Of a DNA stretch of 64,000 nucleotides, positions 1,361 through 51,223 are shown piece by piece (position 1 is the first letter of the stretch; each line of letters starts with the position of its first letter). The DNA comes from Marinifilum flexuosum. GTDB lineage: Bacteria; Bacteroidota; Bacteroidia; Bacteroidales; Marinifilaceae. The stretch covers positions 922,490 to 986,489 of the forward strand of contig NZ_RAPQ01000008.1 of NCBI RefSeq assembly GCF_003610555.1. Reading direction: 5' to 3'. A model generated the notes under the pieces. That model saw only the letters and a program-made list of their open reading frames with translations. It was not told the DNA's origin and made no database searches. The position numbers and the translations under genes were made by a program.

Positions 1361-2539
1361 ATGAAAGCACTTAGAAAATTTCTTGATAAAAAGAAACCTT
1401 TATTTGAAAAAGGGGGCAAGTTTGCGAAGTTGCAGTCTACTTTCGACGCTTTTGACACTTTCCTATTTGTTCCTGATCATACCTCCAAAACGGGTACACA
1501 CATCAAGGATGCTATCGATTTGAAGCGTACTATGTCTGTGGTTGTTATGGCTTTAATCCCTTCGTTGTTGTTCGGTATGTACAACATCGGTTATCAGCAT
1601 TTCTTATCAGTAGGCGAAACTGCGCCATTGATGGATATGTTTGTTTATGGATTAATCAAAGTATTACCAATAGTTGTAGTTTCATACGTAGTTGGTTTGG
1701 GTATTGAGTTTGCCTTTGCGCAAATGAGAGGACATGCAGTAAACGAGGGTTTCCTTGTTTCGGGTATGTTAATTCCTTTGGTTATGCCAGTTGAGGCTCC
1801 ACTTTGGATGGTAGCTGTATCAACTGCTTTTGCGGTTGTTATTGGTAAAGAAGTATTCGGCGGAACCGGAATGAATATCTGGAATCCTGCCTTGATTGCA
1901 CGTGCATTCTTCTTCTTTGCTTACCCGTCAAAAATGTCGGGCGATGCGGTTTGGATTGCAGAAAAAGCAGATACTTTTTCAGGAGCGACACCATTGGCTG
2001 ATGCAGCAGCATTAGTTGATGCAACACCTGCTCAAGCTGAAAGCTTAATGTCTGGAGCATTATCTCAAACTTGGGATATGTTTATTGGTTTGATACCAGG
2101 ATCAATTGGTGAAACATCTACTCTTGCGATATTGATTGGTGCAGTTATTTTGATTGCTACAGGTATCGGAAGTTGGAGAATCATGTTGTCGGTATTCGTT
2201 GGTGGTTATGCAATGGGAGCTATCTTCAACTTGATTGGTGCTAACCCATATATGGAATTGATTCCTGCATGGCAGCATTTAATCATGGGTGGATTTGCAT
2301 TTGGTGCTGTATTTATGGCAACAGATCCTGTTTCGGCAACTCAAACTACACGTGGTAAGTACATTTATGGTTTCTTAATTGGATTCCTTGCAGTATTGAT
2401 TCGTGTTATGAATGCTGGTTTCCCAGAAGCTATGATGTTGGCAATTCTTTTCATGAATACATTTGCGCCATTGATCGACCACTATGTTGTTCAAGGCAAT
2501 GTGAAGAGAAGATTGAAACGAGTTAAGGTGAAAGCTTAA
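1361..2539 (+). CDS. nqrB: Na+-translocating NADH:quinone reductase subunit B
   Basis: Integral membrane subunit of the NQR sodium pump, 392 residues with about ten hydrophobic segments after a roughly 50-residue cytoplasmic N-terminus. It carries riboflavin and a covalently bound FMN. The FMN site is visible as SGAT at residues 207-210, Thr210 being the predicted phosphoester acceptor. The flanking FSGATPLA matches the family flavinylation motif. ApbE, encoded downstream at 5980, is the expected flavinylating enzyme. Spacing to nqrA and nqrC is about 20 bp each, consistent with one transcript. Length and topology are normal for the family. Confidence 0.97.
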   Translation: MKALRKFLDKKKPLFEKGGKFAKLQSTFDAFDTFLFVPDHTSKTGTHIKDAIDLKRTMSVVVMALIPSLLFGMYNIGYQHFLSVGETAPLMDMFVYGLIKVLPIVVVSYVVGLGIEFAFAQMRGHAVNEGFLVSGMLIPLVMPVEAPLWMVAVSTAFAVVIGKEVFGGTGMNIWNPALIARAFFFFAYPSKMSGDAVWIAEKADTFSGATPLADAAALVDATPAQAESLMSGALSQTWDMFIGLIPGSIGETSTLAILIGAVILIATGIGSWRIMLSVFVGGYAMGAIFNLIGANPYMELIPAWQHLIMGGFAFGAVFMATDPVSATQTTRGKYIYGFLIGFLAVLIRVMNAGFPEAMMLAILFMNTFAPLIDHYVVQGNVKRRLKRVKVKA

Positions 2540-7879: not shown

Positions 7880-10324
7880 ATGTCAGAAACATTAAGAGAA
7901 AACATGGAAGCTAAAGATGATAATTTATCATACGAAGATTTTACTTCCGAAGTTCTTGAAGATTATCGCATAGCAAATATAAGCCGTCAGTTAAGTATTT
8001 TAGGTCGCAAGGAAGTTTTAACTGGTAAGGCCAAATTTGGAATATTTGGTGATGGAAAAGAGATTGCCCAGATTGCAATGGCAAAATCATTTAAAAAAGG
8101 TGATTGGCGATCTGGATATTATAGAGATCAAACTTTTATGCTGGCTGCAGGTATGCTTACACCAGAAGAGTTTTTTGCCCAATTGTTTGGCGAAACTCAA
8201 TTGGATAAAAATCCTGCAAATGGTGGGCGTTTAATGAATAATCATTATGCATCAAGAAGTTTGAATAAGGATGGTTCCTGGAAGAATCTTACCGAACAAA
8301 AAAACTCTTCAGCAGATATTTCACCAACAGCTGGACAAATGCCTAGATTACTGGGATTGGCTTATGCTTCAAAGTTATTTAGAGAGAATAACGAGTTGCA
8401 TCAGTTCACTAACTTTTCTGTGAAAGGTAATGAAGTAGCTTTTGGTACAATTGGAGACTCAAGTACATCCGAAGGACATTTTTGGGAAACTATCAATGCT
8501 GCAGGAGTACTAAAAGTACCGATGGCAATGAGTGTTTGGGATGATGGTTGGGGGATTTCAGTTCCTAATAAATATCAAACTACCAAGCAAAATATATCGG
8601 AAGTATTAAAGGGCTTTGAACAAGATGAGAATGGTGATGGATATTTAATATACAAGGCTAAAGGTTGGGATTACCCTGCTTTGTGTAAAATGTATGCTGA
8701 AGGAGTTGAGCTTTGCAGACGCGATCATGTTCCGGTGCTTTTCCATGTAATCGAAATGACTCAACCTTTAGGACATTCAACTTCAGGGTCTCATGAAAGA
8801 TATAAATCTAAAGAAAGGTTAGAATGGGAATCCGATTTTGATCCAATCAAAAAAATGAGAGAGTGGATACTTTCAATGGAAATAATTGAGAGTGGAAAGT
8901 TAGATGAGATAGAAAAAGAAGCGATTGATGTTGTTAAGAAAGCCCGTCAAATAGCATGGAAAAGCTTTACGGATCCAATCAAGAAAGAGCGAGATGAACT
9001 GATTACTCTTGTAGAAAATGCAGGATGTAATTGTAAGAAGACAGATCGAATTAATAGGATCACTTCGGGATTAAAGAAAGTAATCCATCCTGTTCGTAAG
9101 GACAATGTGAGTGCTGCTAAAAAGATTTTAAGACATATCTGTTCAACCTGTGAAAGCTTTAAGCCTTTGAAATCTCAGTTGCAGGTTTGGCTGAAAAGTA
9201 CTATTGATGAAAATCATGAAAGATACAGTAGCCACTTGTATAGTGAAACAGAGTTAAAAGTTAGCAATATAAAACCGGTTGCACCTATTTATAATGAGAA
9301 CTCGAAAACGGTAAATGGGAGAGAAGTTCTGCGTGATAATTTTGAGAAATTATTTATGAAATATCCTCTGCTACTAACATTTGGGGAGGACACCGGTTTT
9401 ATTGGAGGCGTGAACCAAAGTTTGGAAGGAATGCAAGAGAAGTTTGGAGAACTTCGTGTTACTGATACTGGAATTCGTGAAGCCACTATTCTTGGACAAG
9501 GAATCGGGCTTGCTTTACGAGGATTAAGACCGATTGCTGAAGTTCAGTATTTCGACTATTTGCTTTATGCGTTACAAACTATGAGTGATGATTTGGCAAC
9601 CATGCAATACAGAACTAAAGGAGGACAGAAATCTCCTGTTATCATTCGTACTAGAGGTCATAGATTGGAAGGTATTTGGCATTCAGGTTCTCCTTTGAGT
9701 ATGGTCATTAACTCAATTCGTGGGGTTCATGTTTGCGTGCCTAGAAATATGACAGTTGCTGCAGGATTGTATAATTCACTTTTAGAATCAGATGAACCAG
9801 CTTTGGTTATTGAACCTTTAAATGGTTATCGATTAAAAGAAAAAATGCCAGAGAATTTGGGAGAATTTAAGACCGCATTAGGAGTGCCGGAGGTTTTAAA
9901 TGAAGGTAATGATATTACTTTGGTCACCTATGGTTCATGTGTTAGAATTGCAGAAGACGCAGTGAAACAACTGAAAGATTTTAACATCTCGGTAGAACTA
10001 ATTGACGTGCAAACATTATTGCCTTTTGATGTGAATCAAAGAATTTTAGAATCGGTAAAGAAAACCAATCGAATTGTATTTTTCGATGAGGATGTGCCAG
10101 GTGGAGCGACTGCATTTATGATGCAGAAAGTACTGGAAGATCAGAAAGCTTATTTCTATTTGGATTCTGAACCAAGAACCATTACAGCAAAAGATCATCG
10201 ACCTGCCTACGGGACGGATGGAGATTACTTCTCTAATCCTAACGCAGAAGATGTTTTTGAAGTAATTTATGATATCATGAGAGAATCAAACCCAGGTAAA
10301 TTTCCTTCGATTTACACAGAATAG
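7880..10324 (+). CDS. 2-oxoacid dehydrogenase E1 component, fused alpha and beta subunits
   Basis: Thiamine diphosphate-dependent E1 that decarboxylates a 2-oxoacid (probably branched-chain or pyruvate) and acylates the lipoyl group of E2. The single 814-residue chain contains an E1-alpha domain (about 30-360) and an E1-beta domain (about 480-805). The ThDP motif of the alpha part is GDSSTSEG ... WDDGWGIS instead of the usual GDG ... NN. I believe this variant is normal in the Bacteroidota fused form. The beta part shows FGEDTGFIGGV, TRGHRLEGIWHSG and a C-terminal transketolase-like domain (GSCVRIAEDAV). The linker has two cysteine pairs, Cys383/Cys385 and Cys421/Cys424. The likely E2 partner is at 25726 on the other strand. 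A terminator follows 23 bp after the stop. The exact substrate cannot be read from the sequence. Confidence 0.93.
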   Translation: MSETLRENMEAKDDNLSYEDFTSEVLEDYRIANISRQLSILGRKEVLTGKAKFGIFGDGKEIAQIAMAKSFKKGDWRSGYYRDQTFMLAAGMLTPEEFFAQLFGETQLDKNPANGGRLMNNHYASRSLNKDGSWKNLTEQKNSSADISPTAGQMPRLLGLAYASKLFRENNELHQFTNFSVKGNEVAFGTIGDSSTSEGHFWETINAAGVLKVPMAMSVWDDGWGISVPNKYQTTKQNISEVLKGFEQDENGDGYLIYKAKGWDYPALCKMYAEGVELCRRDHVPVLFHVIEMTQPLGHSTSGSHERYKSKERLEWESDFDPIKKMREWILSMEIIESGKLDEIEKEAIDVVKKARQIAWKSFTDPIKKERDELITLVENAGCNCKKTDRINRITSGLKKVIHPVRKDNVSAAKKILRHICSTCESFKPLKSQLQVWLKSTIDENHERYSSHLYSETELKVSNIKPVAPIYNENSKTVNGREVLRDNFEKLFMKYPLLLTFGEDTGFIGGVNQSLEGMQEKFGELRVTDTGIREATILGQGIGLALRGLRPIAEVQYFDYLLYALQTMSDDLATMQYRTKGGQKSPVIIRTRGHRLEGIWHSGSPLSMVINSIRGVHVCVPRNMTVAAGLYNSLLESDEPALVIEPLNGYRLKEKMPENLGEFKTALGVPEVLNEGNDITLVTYGSCVRIAEDAVKQLKDFNISVELIDVQTLLPFDVNQRILESVKKTNRIVFFDEDVPGGATAFMMQKVLEDQKAYFYLDSEPRTITAKDHRPAYGTDGDYFSNPNAEDVFEVIYDIMRESNPGKFPSIYTE

Positions 10325-10347
10325 TAATTTTATTATATTGATAATGA

Positions 10348-10380
10348 ATCCACAGACAGAAAAGTTTGTGGATTTTTTTT
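10348..10380 (+). terminator. Terminator after the E1 gene
   Basis: ATCCACAGAC / GTTTGTGGAT forms a 10-bp stem (one G-T pair) with an AGAAAA loop, followed by eight T. It is a textbook intrinsic terminator for the E1 gene. Confidence 0.9.
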
Positions 10381-10429
10381 ACGTTTCGTTTCACCCCTTT
10401 TTGGAATTAAACTGTCTTATATATGATTG

Positions 10430-10577
10430 AGGGAACTTTTTAGTAGGTTTTTCTCAATTGGCTTTTTAGTGAGTAGTAGTTGGATGCAATGTGGTAATTC
10501 TTCCAAATGATACAAACAATTAAGCAAAATATACTTGTATAAGCAATCACTTCCTTTTAAAGTGATTGCTTTTTTTG
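10430..10577 (+). ncRNA. Candidate small RNA A of a tandem trio
   Basis: A predicted transcript of about 150 nt starting a few bases after the TATATATG box at 10418-10425 and ending in the strong terminator AAGCAATCACTT / AAGTGATTGCTT plus seven T (10541-10577). It begins near AACTTTTTAGTAGG. The only ATG frames inside are eight codons or shorter. Boundaries are inferred from promoter-like and terminator sequences. Confidence 0.5.
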
Positions 10578-10665
10578 TTTATGCACTTAGTTAAAAATAT
10601 AAATTTTAAAAAAAATAAAATTCTTGTCACCCCTTTTTAATATTCCCCTGTTTTAGTATTGTTCA

Positions 10666-10817
10666 TGACAAGAAATAGGGGTCTTGTTGCGAATAACTTT
10701 TTAGTTCGTATGTGCCTTAAGTAAAGTAATGGTAATGATATGAATGGGCACAATTCTAAAGGGCTATATTATATAGCATTTAAACGATCATTCTTAGGGG
10801 GAATGATCGTTTTTTTT
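10666..10817 (+). ncRNA. Candidate small RNA B of a tandem trio
   Basis: A predicted transcript of about 150 nt downstream of TAGTATTG (10654-10661), ending in AAACGATCATT / AATGATCGTTT plus a T-run (10782-10817). Its promoter is flanked by a perfect 9-bp inverted repeat, TTCTTGTCA (10621-10629) and TGACAAGAA (10666-10674), a possible operator. A 19-codon frame (10665-10724, MTRNRGLVANN...) and a 27-codon frame from ATG 10740 that runs into the terminator (MNGHNSKGLYYIAFKR...) are present. Neither can be called a gene from sequence alone. Confidence 0.5.
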
Positions 10818-10947
10818 ATTTGATATTTAGATGAATAGGTGTGAAAAACACCAAAAATATTTCCAAAAACGTTAAAGTTTGTTAAAAAAGCAAAGAAATA
10901 CAGACGAAAAGTAACCCTTTTTGATGTTTTAATCGTCTATATAAGTG

Positions 10948-11072
10948 AAAACTTTTAGTTAGTGTTGATTTGATTCATTGTGGTTAGTGGTTAATTGTCG
11001 ATAAGATAATTTGCAAATCAACATAGGATTTTCGCCCGGCATTGTATTTCTTTATATGCCGGGTTTTCTTTT
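10948..11072 (+). ncRNA. Candidate small RNA C of a tandem trio
   Basis: A predicted transcript of about 120 nt downstream of TATATAAG (10938-10945), starting near AACTTTTAGTTAGTG and ending in the CCCGGCAT / ATGCCGGG hairpin (11035-11063) with a T-rich tail. It contains no ATG frame of note. Boundaries are inferred. Confidence 0.45.
11035..11072. terminator. Terminator hairpin between candidate RNA C and the NhaC gene
   Basis: CCCGGCAT (11035-11042) pairs with ATGCCGGG (11056-11063). The T-rich tail TTTTCTTTT lies on the plus-strand side and overlaps the stop of the minus-strand antiporter gene. It should end plus-strand transcription and may also serve the antiporter transcript. Confidence 0.75.
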
Positions 11073-12999
11073 ATCTTTTTCCAAGGAATTTTACGATCAA
11101 GAATAGGGTGATAAATCCTAGGGGAATTAGTATCCATGAACTGATTCCATAGGCTGCAGGCAATAAGCCTAAAATAATTGCTACAGATCCGACAGTTAAA
11201 GCGTAAGGCAGCTGAGTTCTAACATGTTCGATATGATTACAAGAACTTGCTAAAGAGCTTAAAATAGTAGTATCTGATATTGGAGAACAGTGATCACCTA
11301 GGACTGAACCAGCCAAAATTGCCGAAACAGTAATGTAAAAAATATTCATACTTTCAGCATCAAGCATTCCTGCCGAATGGCAAAGAGCCCAGGAAGCAGG
11401 AAGAATCAGAGGATAAAGAATAGCCATCGTTCCCCAAGATGAACCTGTTGAAAAAGCAATTAAGGCAGATAAAATAAAAGTAAATGTTGGCAAGAATTCA
11501 GGCGGAACTTCAGTTGCAATTAAGATTTTCGATATAAAATCTGCTGTATGTAAATCTTTTGTAATGTCAGCTAAAGCCCATGCCAATATCAGAATAAGAA
11601 TTGCCGTTAGCATGGTTTTAAAGCCTTTTACTAAGGCATCAACAGTTTTCTTTAAACTTAGTATTCTTTGTCCAATGCTTAGAGCTGAAGCTACTAATAC
11701 CGCCGAAATTGATGACCAAAGCAGAGCCAAATAAGAATCAGAAGCTCCGATAATATGTGATAGTTTTGTTCCAAACGAGATGGAAGAATCATCCCAAATA
11801 TTTCCATTCCAACCAGTATAAATTAAGCCTGCAAAGGTCCCAAATATTACTACCATAACTGGAATTCCGGCATTGTACCATCTTGTAGGTATTTCAGGCG
11901 ATATTTCAATACTTTCGATTTCATCATTGGAATGCTTATTGATTTTGGAATATTTTTCTTCGGATTTAGCCCTTTGTTCAGCTTTATACATTGGTCCGAA
12001 ATCCTTTTTCATGATTACAATCATTAAAATAAAAAACAGGGTGAAGAAAGGATAAAAACGGGTTGGCAATGAATTTAAAAATATACTGTATGGACTTTCA
12101 TCGATGTTGATTTGAACAGTTGCCGATTGAATGTAACTCAATTCTATTCCAATCCAGGTTGTAATCAAGGCTATTGAAGCCACGGGAGCCGCTGTTGAAT
12201 CTACTATATAGGCAAGTTTTTCTCTCGATACTTTTAATTTATCCGTTACCGGCCGCATGGTATTTCCAACCACCAAAGTGTTGGCATAATCATCGAAAAA
12301 TATTAATACACCTAAAAGCCAGGTAACAAATTGTCCGGATCGAGAGCTGTTTGCAAAACGCGACAGCTTGTTCACTACTCCTTGCATACCACCATTTTGA
12401 GTAATCAGGTTGACCATAGCTCCAATTAGCATAGAAAAGACAATAATGGAAATGTGGCCTGTATCAGCTAAAGATTGAATGATATAAGTATCCGAAATGG
12501 CAAAGATTGCTTTAAAAAAGGCAGAAAAAAATGAGATATCCTGATATCCGAAAATGATAAGTGTCCCAGAGAACAGACCTACAAATAGAGCAGAAAATAC
12601 TTCTTTAAATATTAAAGCGATTAAAATAGCGATTAGTGGAGGCAATATCGACATCCATAAAGGAATGGCCTTGTACTTTTTTTCTTGTGTTTGTTGCGAA
12701 ATGCTTACTTGTACAATATCACTTCCTTTAAAAACAAATGGAAGTTTTAATTGGTTTTGTTCAGCTTGAGCCCAGACTATATTTCCATTTATCTTTACCA
12801 ATACAGAATCATTTTTCAGATGATTTTCATTTTTTAAATGAAGAGTAAGTTCTGAAGGAATATCAGCAATAATTATTTTTGGTAGCTCAATGGTAAAATC
12901 TTCATTGATTGGTTGCTTTTCTTTATCAGAAGCAGCAGTACTTTGAAATGATAACAATAGCAGTAAAAAAAGAATGGAGAGGGTCGTGTTTTTAATCAT
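11071..12999 (-). CDS. nhaC: NhaC-family Na+/H+ antiporter with N-terminal periplasmic domain
   Basis: A 642-residue inner-membrane protein. It has a cleavable signal peptide (about residues 1-23, cut after STAA), a short beta-rich extracytoplasmic domain of roughly 85 residues, and then the antiporter body of about 11-12 helices from residue 115. Conserved-looking features include FDDYANTLVVGNTMRPVTD, a polar intramembrane stretch common in NhaC proteins, and SSWGTMAILYPL. A cytoplasmic charged loop lies near residues 335-365. It would exchange Na+ for H+ or an organic substrate, fitting the NQR-based sodium economy. The extra N-terminal domain makes it longer than classical NhaC (about 460-500 residues). 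Substrate specificity is not deducible: some family members exchange malate/lactate or tyrosine/tyramine. Confidence 0.88.
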   Translation of the reverse strand: MIKNTTLSILFLLLLLSFQSTAASDKEKQPINEDFTIELPKIIIADIPSELTLHLKNENHLKNDSVLVKINGNIVWAQAEQNQLKLPFVFKGSDIVQVSISQQTQEKKYKAIPLWMSILPPLIAILIALIFKEVFSALFVGLFSGTLIIFGYQDISFFSAFFKAIFAISDTYIIQSLADTGHISIIVFSMLIGAMVNLITQNGGMQGVVNKLSRFANSSRSGQFVTWLLGVLIFFDDYANTLVVGNTMRPVTDKLKVSREKLAYIVDSTAAPVASIALITTWIGIELSYIQSATVQINIDESPYSIFLNSLPTRFYPFFTLFFILMIVIMKKDFGPMYKAEQRAKSEEKYSKINKHSNDEIESIEISPEIPTRWYNAGIPVMVVIFGTFAGLIYTGWNGNIWDDSSISFGTKLSHIIGASDSYLALLWSSISAVLVASALSIGQRILSLKKTVDALVKGFKTMLTAILILILAWALADITKDLHTADFISKILIATEVPPEFLPTFTFILSALIAFSTGSSWGTMAILYPLILPASWALCHSAGMLDAESMNIFYITVSAILAGSVLGDHCSPISDTTILSSLASSCNHIEHVRTQLPYALTVGSVAIILGLLPAAYGISSWILIPLGFITLFLIVKFLGKR

Positions 13000-51019: not shown

Positions 51020-51223
51020 TCTTTTAATTCTATTATTCTCCTACTCGTATGGCTTTTCGGATGCGCCCCGTTTATGGTTTCTGGACTCCATTTGAAATTT
51101 GCAGGCGCGAAAGTAACAATTTAAATTATTATGCTTGTTTATTTTTTTAGTTGTTTTTAGAAGAAATGTTGTATTTATTGATGTTTAGTTATTTCTATAC
51201 TAAGAAAGAATTGTTTAGTAAAT

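Follow-up and report, generated by a model that had tools for sequence, protein, structure and literature searches.

Three tandem candidate small-RNA genes with probable ECF-type promoters in Marinifilum flexuosum and their complementarity to susC leaders

The enterobacterial RNAs RybB and MicA are sigma-E-dependent small RNAs (sRNAs) that silence the mRNAs of outer-membrane proteins in an Hfq-based manner. Promoters read by ECF sigma factors generally combine an AAC-like -35 element with a CGT- or GTC-like -10 element some 16 nt further on. By our own reading of the literature consulted, few Bacteroidota sRNAs have known targets. Bacteroides is reported to be without Hfq, ProQ and CsrA (PMC12119571). 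The FopS sRNAs of B. theta are described as 14 members with canonical sigma-ABfr promoters, each with an unpaired 5' stretch and a terminator; they pair at susC start regions, mostly of glycan PULs, and block translation, and they are said to be deposited in Rfam (PMC11697453). For F. psychrophilum, a promoter motif assigned to an ECF sigma factor is described that has CGT in its -10 box (PMC9723704).

The window analysed here is a stretch of 64,000 nucleotides from contig C1 of the 5.17-Mb genome of Marinifilum flexuosum (G000). Its interval between a fused pyruvate dehydrogenase (PDH) E1 alpha/beta gene and an NhaC-like antiporter gene (Table 1) holds, as far as the sequence can tell, three tandem sRNA genes. 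An earlier note on this DNA had described three promoter-terminator units in a gene-free stretch; the boxes, the GTYT elements and the hairpins were found, and no ORF of at least 40 aa lies within the interval (10325-11070). A terminator scan of 10300-11100 returned three hairpins against 0.3 expected: the upstream one belongs to the PDH gene, and the other two are the terminators of unit 1 and unit 2. The hairpin of unit 3 (11035-11063), whose loop is too long for the terminator scan, appears in the fold. All three units were matched in G000 and in 4/4 other Marinifilum genomes searched (G001-G004), with promoter, body and terminator conserved across the genus whereas the spacers between units have diverged. 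Because approximately 6.5 kb of other genes separates unit 1 from units 2 and 3 in G001, the units can stand alone. This stretch (L266, G001:C42:354800-362400) includes a subtilase-like protein, named by eye. The units of G004 are spread over two short contigs, and the AACTTTTTAGTT block has been lost from unit 2 there. The earlier observation thus holds for the units, which are real and conserved in the genus, but its box spacing, TAnnTnnG element, motif copy and details of the RNA bodies needed correction.

Table 1. Positions of genes, sRNA units and sequence elements in the window.
Feature	Position	Strand	Remarks
Fused PDH E1 alpha/beta gene	7880..10324	+	Next gene upstream; retained in other genera
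Unit 1 ECF-type promoter	10392..10419	+	-35 CACCCCTTTTT (10392-10402), -10 GTCTTA (10414-10419)
Unit 1 sRNA, type A	10425..10577	+	Predicted start ~10425; terminator stem 10541-10571
Unit 1 predicted pairing core	10463..10502	+	TTTTTAGT...GATGCAATGTGGTAATTCTT, complementary to susC leader
Unit 2 ECF-type promoter	10628..10655	+	CACCCCTTTTT, GTTTTA
Unit 2 sRNA, type B	10661..10818	+	Predicted start ~10661; terminator stem 10782-10812
Unit 2 predicted pairing blocks	10695..10736	+	AACTTTTTAGTT 10695-10706, TTAAGTAAAG 10717-10726, TAATGGTAAT 10727-10736; collinear with susC leader
Direct repeat GTTAAAGTTTGTTAAA	10871..10886	+	Upstream of unit 3; also upstream of target susC genes
Unit 3 ECF-type promoter	10913..10941	+	AACCCTTTTT, GTCTATA
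Unit 3 sRNA, type C	10945..11072	+	Predicted start ~10945; terminator stem 11035-11042 / 11056-11063
Unit 3 predicted pairing segments	10953..10996	+	TTTTAGTTAGT 10953-10963, GTTAGTGGTTAATT 10983-10996
NhaC-like antiporter gene	11071..12999	-	Convergent neighbour, kept in other genera

The promoters share a C-rich box followed after 11-12 bp by GTYT, as had been proposed: unit 1 reads CACCCCTTTTT-N11-GTCT (10392-10417), unit 2 CACCCCTTTTT-N11-GTTT (10628-10653) and unit 3 AACCCTTTTT-N12-GTCT (10913-10938). The box of unit 3 has three C and not four, and the first base of the box stands exactly 22 nt from GT in all three units. The unit 1 box and -10 are found in G000 and 4/4 genus relatives, with GTATTA in G001, and relatives retain CACCC-NN-TTT ... 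GTYT as the promoter element. The ACC...GTYT spacing agrees with ECF-type geometry in the units and across the family. The shared box is therefore best read as the -35 element of an ECF-type promoter and GTYT as its -10 element; the promoters are probably not plain sigma-A promoters and are probably read by an alternative sigma factor, as the earlier note, which also allowed for an activator, had suggested.

It is unlikely that these are instead ordinary sigma-A promoters with TAnnTTTG at -7 and the CACCC box as an activator site. TAnnTnnG boxes (TATATATG, TAGTATTG and TATATAAG) do occur in all three M. flexuosum units, next to three copies of AACTTTT(T)AGT, and TAGTATTG is kept in unit 2 across the genus and recurs in several relatives. 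Unit 2, however, is the only unit in which TAnnTnnG is kept: unit 1 of G003 and G004 reads TATGAGTG/TATAAGTG, and unit 3 of G001-G003 reads TATATAAT/TATATAAA, while G004 unit 3 has TATATATG. The element kept at a DsbD_N-like gene and a Cys-rich gene that share the box is GTCTTA, not TAnnTnnG, and box and GTYT hold a constant 21-22 nt register across the family units. The proposal that the box replaces a -33 TTTG before a TAnnTnnG -7 element consequently gives way to GTYT, the element kept both in relatives and at other genes, whereas the predicted conservation of the box spacing in related genomes is borne out.

Pattern searches place the same promoter at few other genes. MCCCCTTTTTN{11,12}GTYT has three sites in the 5.17-Mb genome, two of them in this region, against 0 in the control. 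Two results weigh against the observation: the strict form ACCCYTTTTN12-13GTYTW...AACTTTT occurs in 1/57 genomes, G000 itself, and the looser ACCCNNTTTN12GTYTW is not enriched in G000 (8 sites versus 6 in the reversed control). The eight sites of the looser form are the three units, the DsbD_N-like gene, the Cys-rich gene, L047, L020 and L040. TCACCNNNTTN13GTCTWA has 10 sites in six genomes versus 2 in the reversed control, with none in G012. Its three sites in G000 are at unit 1, the DsbD_N-like gene and the Cys-rich gene, the last of which adjoins a TonB receptor gene. The site stands at the DsbD_N-like gene in G000-G003 (DsbD_N assigned by Pfam for G000) and at the Cys-rich gene in G000-G002. 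In other genera, the sole site of G009 lies upstream of a DsbD_N-like counterpart and that of G015 upstream of a Cys-rich counterpart, both recognised by eye; Pfam gives no match for this G015 protein. Probable users of this promoter besides the units are found in L148, L151, L143 and L144 (DsbD_N/thioredoxin-like genes, and a small Cys-rich protein encoded next to a TonB receptor). A site resembling the unit 2 promoter lies in L015 (1525-1560) between a sigma-like and a FecR-like gene, named by eye, and the L047 site (~1501-1526, minus strand) is likewise between sigma-like and FecR-like genes.

The three RNAs look like members of one new RNA family of Marinifilaceae, with types A, B and C, and the earlier view that their bodies differ has been given up: a unit-1 model matches M. 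flexuosum unit 2 at 29.6 bits (E 1.4e-5) and, weakly, unit 3 at 14 bits (E 0.1). Covariance-model search, which had been recommended as a check, extends the family with three models (R1, R2 and R3) that exclude the promoter; the counts of genomes include those used for training. R1 matches 16/56 family genomes and 5/17 genera (E<=0.1), R2 22/56 family genomes, some weakly (E<=0.1), and R3, a model built from hits among these genomes, 18/56 family genomes and 6/17 genera (E<=0.01), with up to four matches in one genome of another genus. Arrays occupy the PDH-NhaC interval in G009, G011, G012, G015, G025, G068, G069, G070 and G073, belonging to four genera beyond Marinifilum (g6, g8, g9 and g12). 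In genus g17, R2 matches 2/5 genomes weakly (G057, E 0.09; G059, E 0.002), apparently through the terminator hairpin only, and R3 has no match in the five genomes. A pattern search of genome contigs gave 22 stretches, 17 of them in Marinifilum, Labilibaculum or a Marinifilaceae MAG; the remaining 5 were taken as chance. Viral contigs searched gave 0 matches. An order-wide search found 2/295 genomes at E<=0.01, G000 and a weak match in G106 (E 0.0062), but it scored 10 candidates per genome with known members mostly outside the draw, which makes absence there weak evidence. No Rfam 15 family matches the units at the gathering cut-off, and the 16 matches at a relaxed threshold are all under their gathering scores. 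No literature on these RNAs was among the matches listed in open-licence PMC.

The promoter box had been left out of the RNA models and was then scored upstream of the matched units. A score of at least 10 was reached upstream of 39/54 units, and for 30 of these 39 none of 100 shuffles scored as well, although many units are close relatives and so not independent. The 15 units below 10 comprise four second-locus copies, the G014 unit, a single unit in G012 and another in G069, six of the seven D units, and two type B entries of G004. For one of these last two the test window missed a visible box, and the other is cut by a contig end. The second-locus copies (L091, L092, L093 and L075) have no CACCC box and are preceded by an inverted repeat such as TTGTTAGACAAT...ATTGTCTAACA. 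D units are divergent middle members of arrays in G073, G069, G071, G068 and G025 and at G070:C2; with a box score below 10 they yet retain the GTGGTA loop, and they are perhaps decaying or under different control.

Structural support comes from a 16-row alignment that omits Marinifilum, G009, G011 and G014 and takes its structure from single-sequence folds. It was used because RNAalifold on a 24-row alignment gave a poor structure, owing to misaligned hairpins; for the same reason the third covariance model carries 12 pairs only. Helices P1, P3 and P4 and the terminator stem are backed by the 16-row alignment. Pairs changed on both sides number 9/40, versus 4.8 (sd 1.4) in shuffles and at most 4 in slid controls; 91.9% of cells are paired, and 25 are changed on both sides versus 7.1 (sd 2.2) in shuffles. 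The count of further pair types is not above shuffles, and helix P2 shows no both-side change in this alignment. Types A and B have additional helices besides the terminator, and the type A seed is predicted to be paired inside the RNA; in type C the 5' end, which carries the seed, is predicted to be unpaired, and there are internal stems as well. A small ORF in the core was rejected by eye, as relatives show ATGTAA and indels there. A reading of the units as attenuated leaders, or as degenerate repeats, with no function in trans is highly improbable: some array members, the D units, do seem decayed, but the cores are conserved across genera, the helices covary, and on the plus strand past the units no gene appears before the convergent NhaC-like gene.

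What is new here is the complementarity of each core to the leaders of SusC-type transporters. Each core matches a 56-nt susC leader in collinear blocks that differ among the three RNAs. For the leader of susC gene L209 (GAATTACCATTAACCATTTTGCATCTTTACTTAATTACTAACTAAAAAGTTTTTTTATG), M. flexuosum unit 1 is complementary to AAGAATTACCA, TGCATC and ACTAAAAAG, and unit 2 to ATTACCATTA, CTTTACTTAA and AACTAAAAAGTT; unit 3 is complementary to a TACCATTAACCA-like block and to ACTAACTAAAA, which lies directly upstream of the ATG in susC genes of three genera. Of the two TTTTTAGT motif copies in unit 1, it is the second (10463-10470) that is conserved, not the one at 10434-10444, and the TTTTAGTTAGT segment of unit 3 is mostly unpaired in the predicted structure. 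AACTTTT(T)AGT, formerly counted as part of the promoter, is instead predicted to pair with the susC ribosome-binding region; this applies to the copies of units 2 and 3 and, in unit 1, to the copy at 10463. The leader itself is unusually conserved. A query of 82 nt, 56 nt of which precede the ATG, matches at 90-100% identity over nearly its full length at the best place in 22/56 genomes, with partial matches only in 13 more, and the 82 nt (leader and gene start) are 100% identical between Marinifilum and Labilibaculum. G004 (80% complete) has no leader match. In genus g17 the leader is present in each of the five genomes (90-93%), yet R3 matches none of them.

The strength of this complementarity depends on the test. 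The complement of the seed UUUUAGUUAGU near an ATG shows no raw enrichment in four genomes (34 sites versus 35 in the reversed control). Of 30 listed seed loci, 12 (11 genes) are SusC by their N-termini, in three genera (L153-L156, L158-L161, L163, L165, L167 and L179), and the other 18 are not SusC. Leaders were ranked among 351 gene starts, comprising 29 SusC genes and 322 background starts (the first ATG of ORFs of at least 150 aa in the window and 400 kb of genome); the L209 leader came 1st for unit 1, 1st for unit 2 and 2nd, after L199, for unit 3. By plain duplex energy unit 3 is a clear outlier, unit 1 slightly so (-48.1 for L209 versus -45.8 for the best of 46 background starts, with SusC L198 at -48.4), and unit 2 is not (-44.1 versus -49.3). 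An exact complement of 14 nt links unit 3 to another SusC gene, L193, against a background maximum of 13. Since the leader had been chosen by the seed, the seed was removed from the tests. Masking it with a penalised N gave a weak result: 0/54 units beat all background and 10/54 were in the top 5%. A later test, whose form was chosen after this weak result, compared the flanks of the seed, 50 nt to either side. It left out the seven D units, further copies of identical cores and a unit in which no seed could be recognised; every genome was judged against the M. flexuosum background, and the units of G002 and G004 were set against the M. flexuosum leader. The top 1% of 322 then held 19/21 type A, 2/5 type B and 3/13 type C units, and the top 5% held 19/21, 3/5 and 9/13. 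For M. flexuosum units 1 and 2, 0/322 background starts were as good, and for unit 3 6/322; type A of G015 and of G023 fail, with 81 and 33 of 322.

It is quite improbable that the RNAs, though real, work chiefly by way of a protein, as sponge or scaffold, and that the match to the susC leader is secondary. The loops GTGGTA, AAAATATA and ATAGGGG are conserved beyond what pairing alone requires, type A seeds are predicted to be internally paired, and in B. theta the protein RbpB is described as binding FopS sRNAs and a susC leader (PMC11697453), all of which would suit such a role. Against this reading, what the leader fits is the RNAs' reverse complement, and the collinear blocks in which it is matched differ among the three divergent RNAs.

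The M. flexuosum genome has 29 SusC genes above the TIGR04056 cut-off, and 4/29 carry ACTAACTAAAA before the start, with starts set by a simple rule. Ten more TIGR04056 matches lie below the cut-off, at G000:C3:422014-423207 and nine other places. The four genes form two regions of two each, each followed by a second gene, and both second genes scanned (2 of 4) are SusD-like. One region adjoins a beta-Ala-His dipeptidase-type gene and the other contains an M16 peptidase gene. Two tandem susC genes are located at G000:C1:1497-1506 kb. RagAB provides a precedent for peptide import, and by analogy the target SusC/SusD transporters probably import peptides. An upstream repeat links these genes to unit 3. 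GTTAAA-N4-6-GTTAAA has 4 sites in 524 kb, in which the susC stretch was included on purpose, versus 1.0 in shuffles: one before unit 3, those before both main target susC genes, and one elsewhere. The shorter GTTAA-N4-6-GTTAA lies upstream of 13/15 type C, 5/25 type A, 0/7 type B and 1/7 D units, and upstream of 21/21 susC leaders examined, which are not independent cases because they are related by descent (L223 was omitted, its site not having been located); the background is 6 in 464 kb on both strands. As both carry the GTTAA repeat, the unit 3 gene and the target susC genes probably share a transcription factor.

The reading preferred here, and held to be quite likely, is a family of ECF-driven trans-acting sRNAs that block susC translation. 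The units, their conservation, family and promoter geometry, the complementarity and the shared repeat can be read directly from the DNA, and transcription, the identity of the sigma factor, the signal and repression are the parts that we infer. Each unit would have its own ECF-sigma-type promoter and terminator, and activity of the sigma factor would switch on the sRNAs. The inducing signal may reasonably be guessed to be thiol, metal or envelope stress, because the same promoter is found at DsbD/thioredoxin-like genes and a Cys-rich gene by a TonB receptor. On susC/susD mRNAs, the sRNAs may pair with the 5' leader and the ribosome-binding site region and so block the initiation of translation, as a switchable brake on these transporters; in type A, helix P2 would have to open before pairing. 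A common transcription factor for unit 3 and the target susC would create a feed-forward loop. The earlier interpretation is retained for tandem sRNA genes with a shared non-sigma-A promoter, but not for the TTTG stand-in, the differing bodies or the role of AACTTTT(T)AGT.

By analogy, the sRNAs most likely block susC translation as FopS does. The likeness is one of way of working and not of family membership, as promoter type and architecture differ. Like FopS as described, these are multicopy paralogous sRNAs with terminators in Bacteroidota (three units here) and have a conserved segment for the susC translation start, here by complementarity only. Unlike FopS, the Marinifilum promoters are ECF-type and not canonical sigma-ABfr, with TAnnTnnG kept in unit 2 only; the RNAs have several conserved helices and not a single-stranded 5' stretch and terminator alone; they form tandem arrays at one site and would pair along most of the leader; and the targets lie beside peptidase genes and are not mostly glycan PULs. 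The lack of an Rfam match may be a further difference. GibS of B. theta, with promoter motif 2 (PM2), likewise combines a non-sigma-A promoter with pairing at translation starts, but the description of PM2 is of a nearly palindromic motif whose elements lie at -10 and -30 (PMC7366714). The SM6 promoters of F. psychrophilum differ in that SM6 genes, as described, include T9SS components (PMC9723704).

RybB and MicA resemble the family, by description, in that an ECF sigma drives outer-membrane-silencing sRNAs, and differ in targets and in Hfq. A Bacteroidota counterpart of the sigma-E/porin-sRNA circuit can be proposed tentatively, with doubt slightly outweighing belief: one ECF sigma would direct tandem, structurally distinct sRNAs to one ultraconserved susC leader, with feed-forward through unit 3 and the leader frozen by multi-RNA pairing. 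If this is true, the leader would be frozen across genera because several RNAs must pair with it, which offers a cause for its unusual conservation. Since promoter, RNA family, target leader and shared upstream repeat are all legible here, sigma-driven sRNA control of SusC transporters can be put to a direct test in genera from outside the gut. Elsewhere in the window, a DUF805 RNA (RF03081) at 51034-51096 on the minus strand is the only Rfam match at the gathering threshold.
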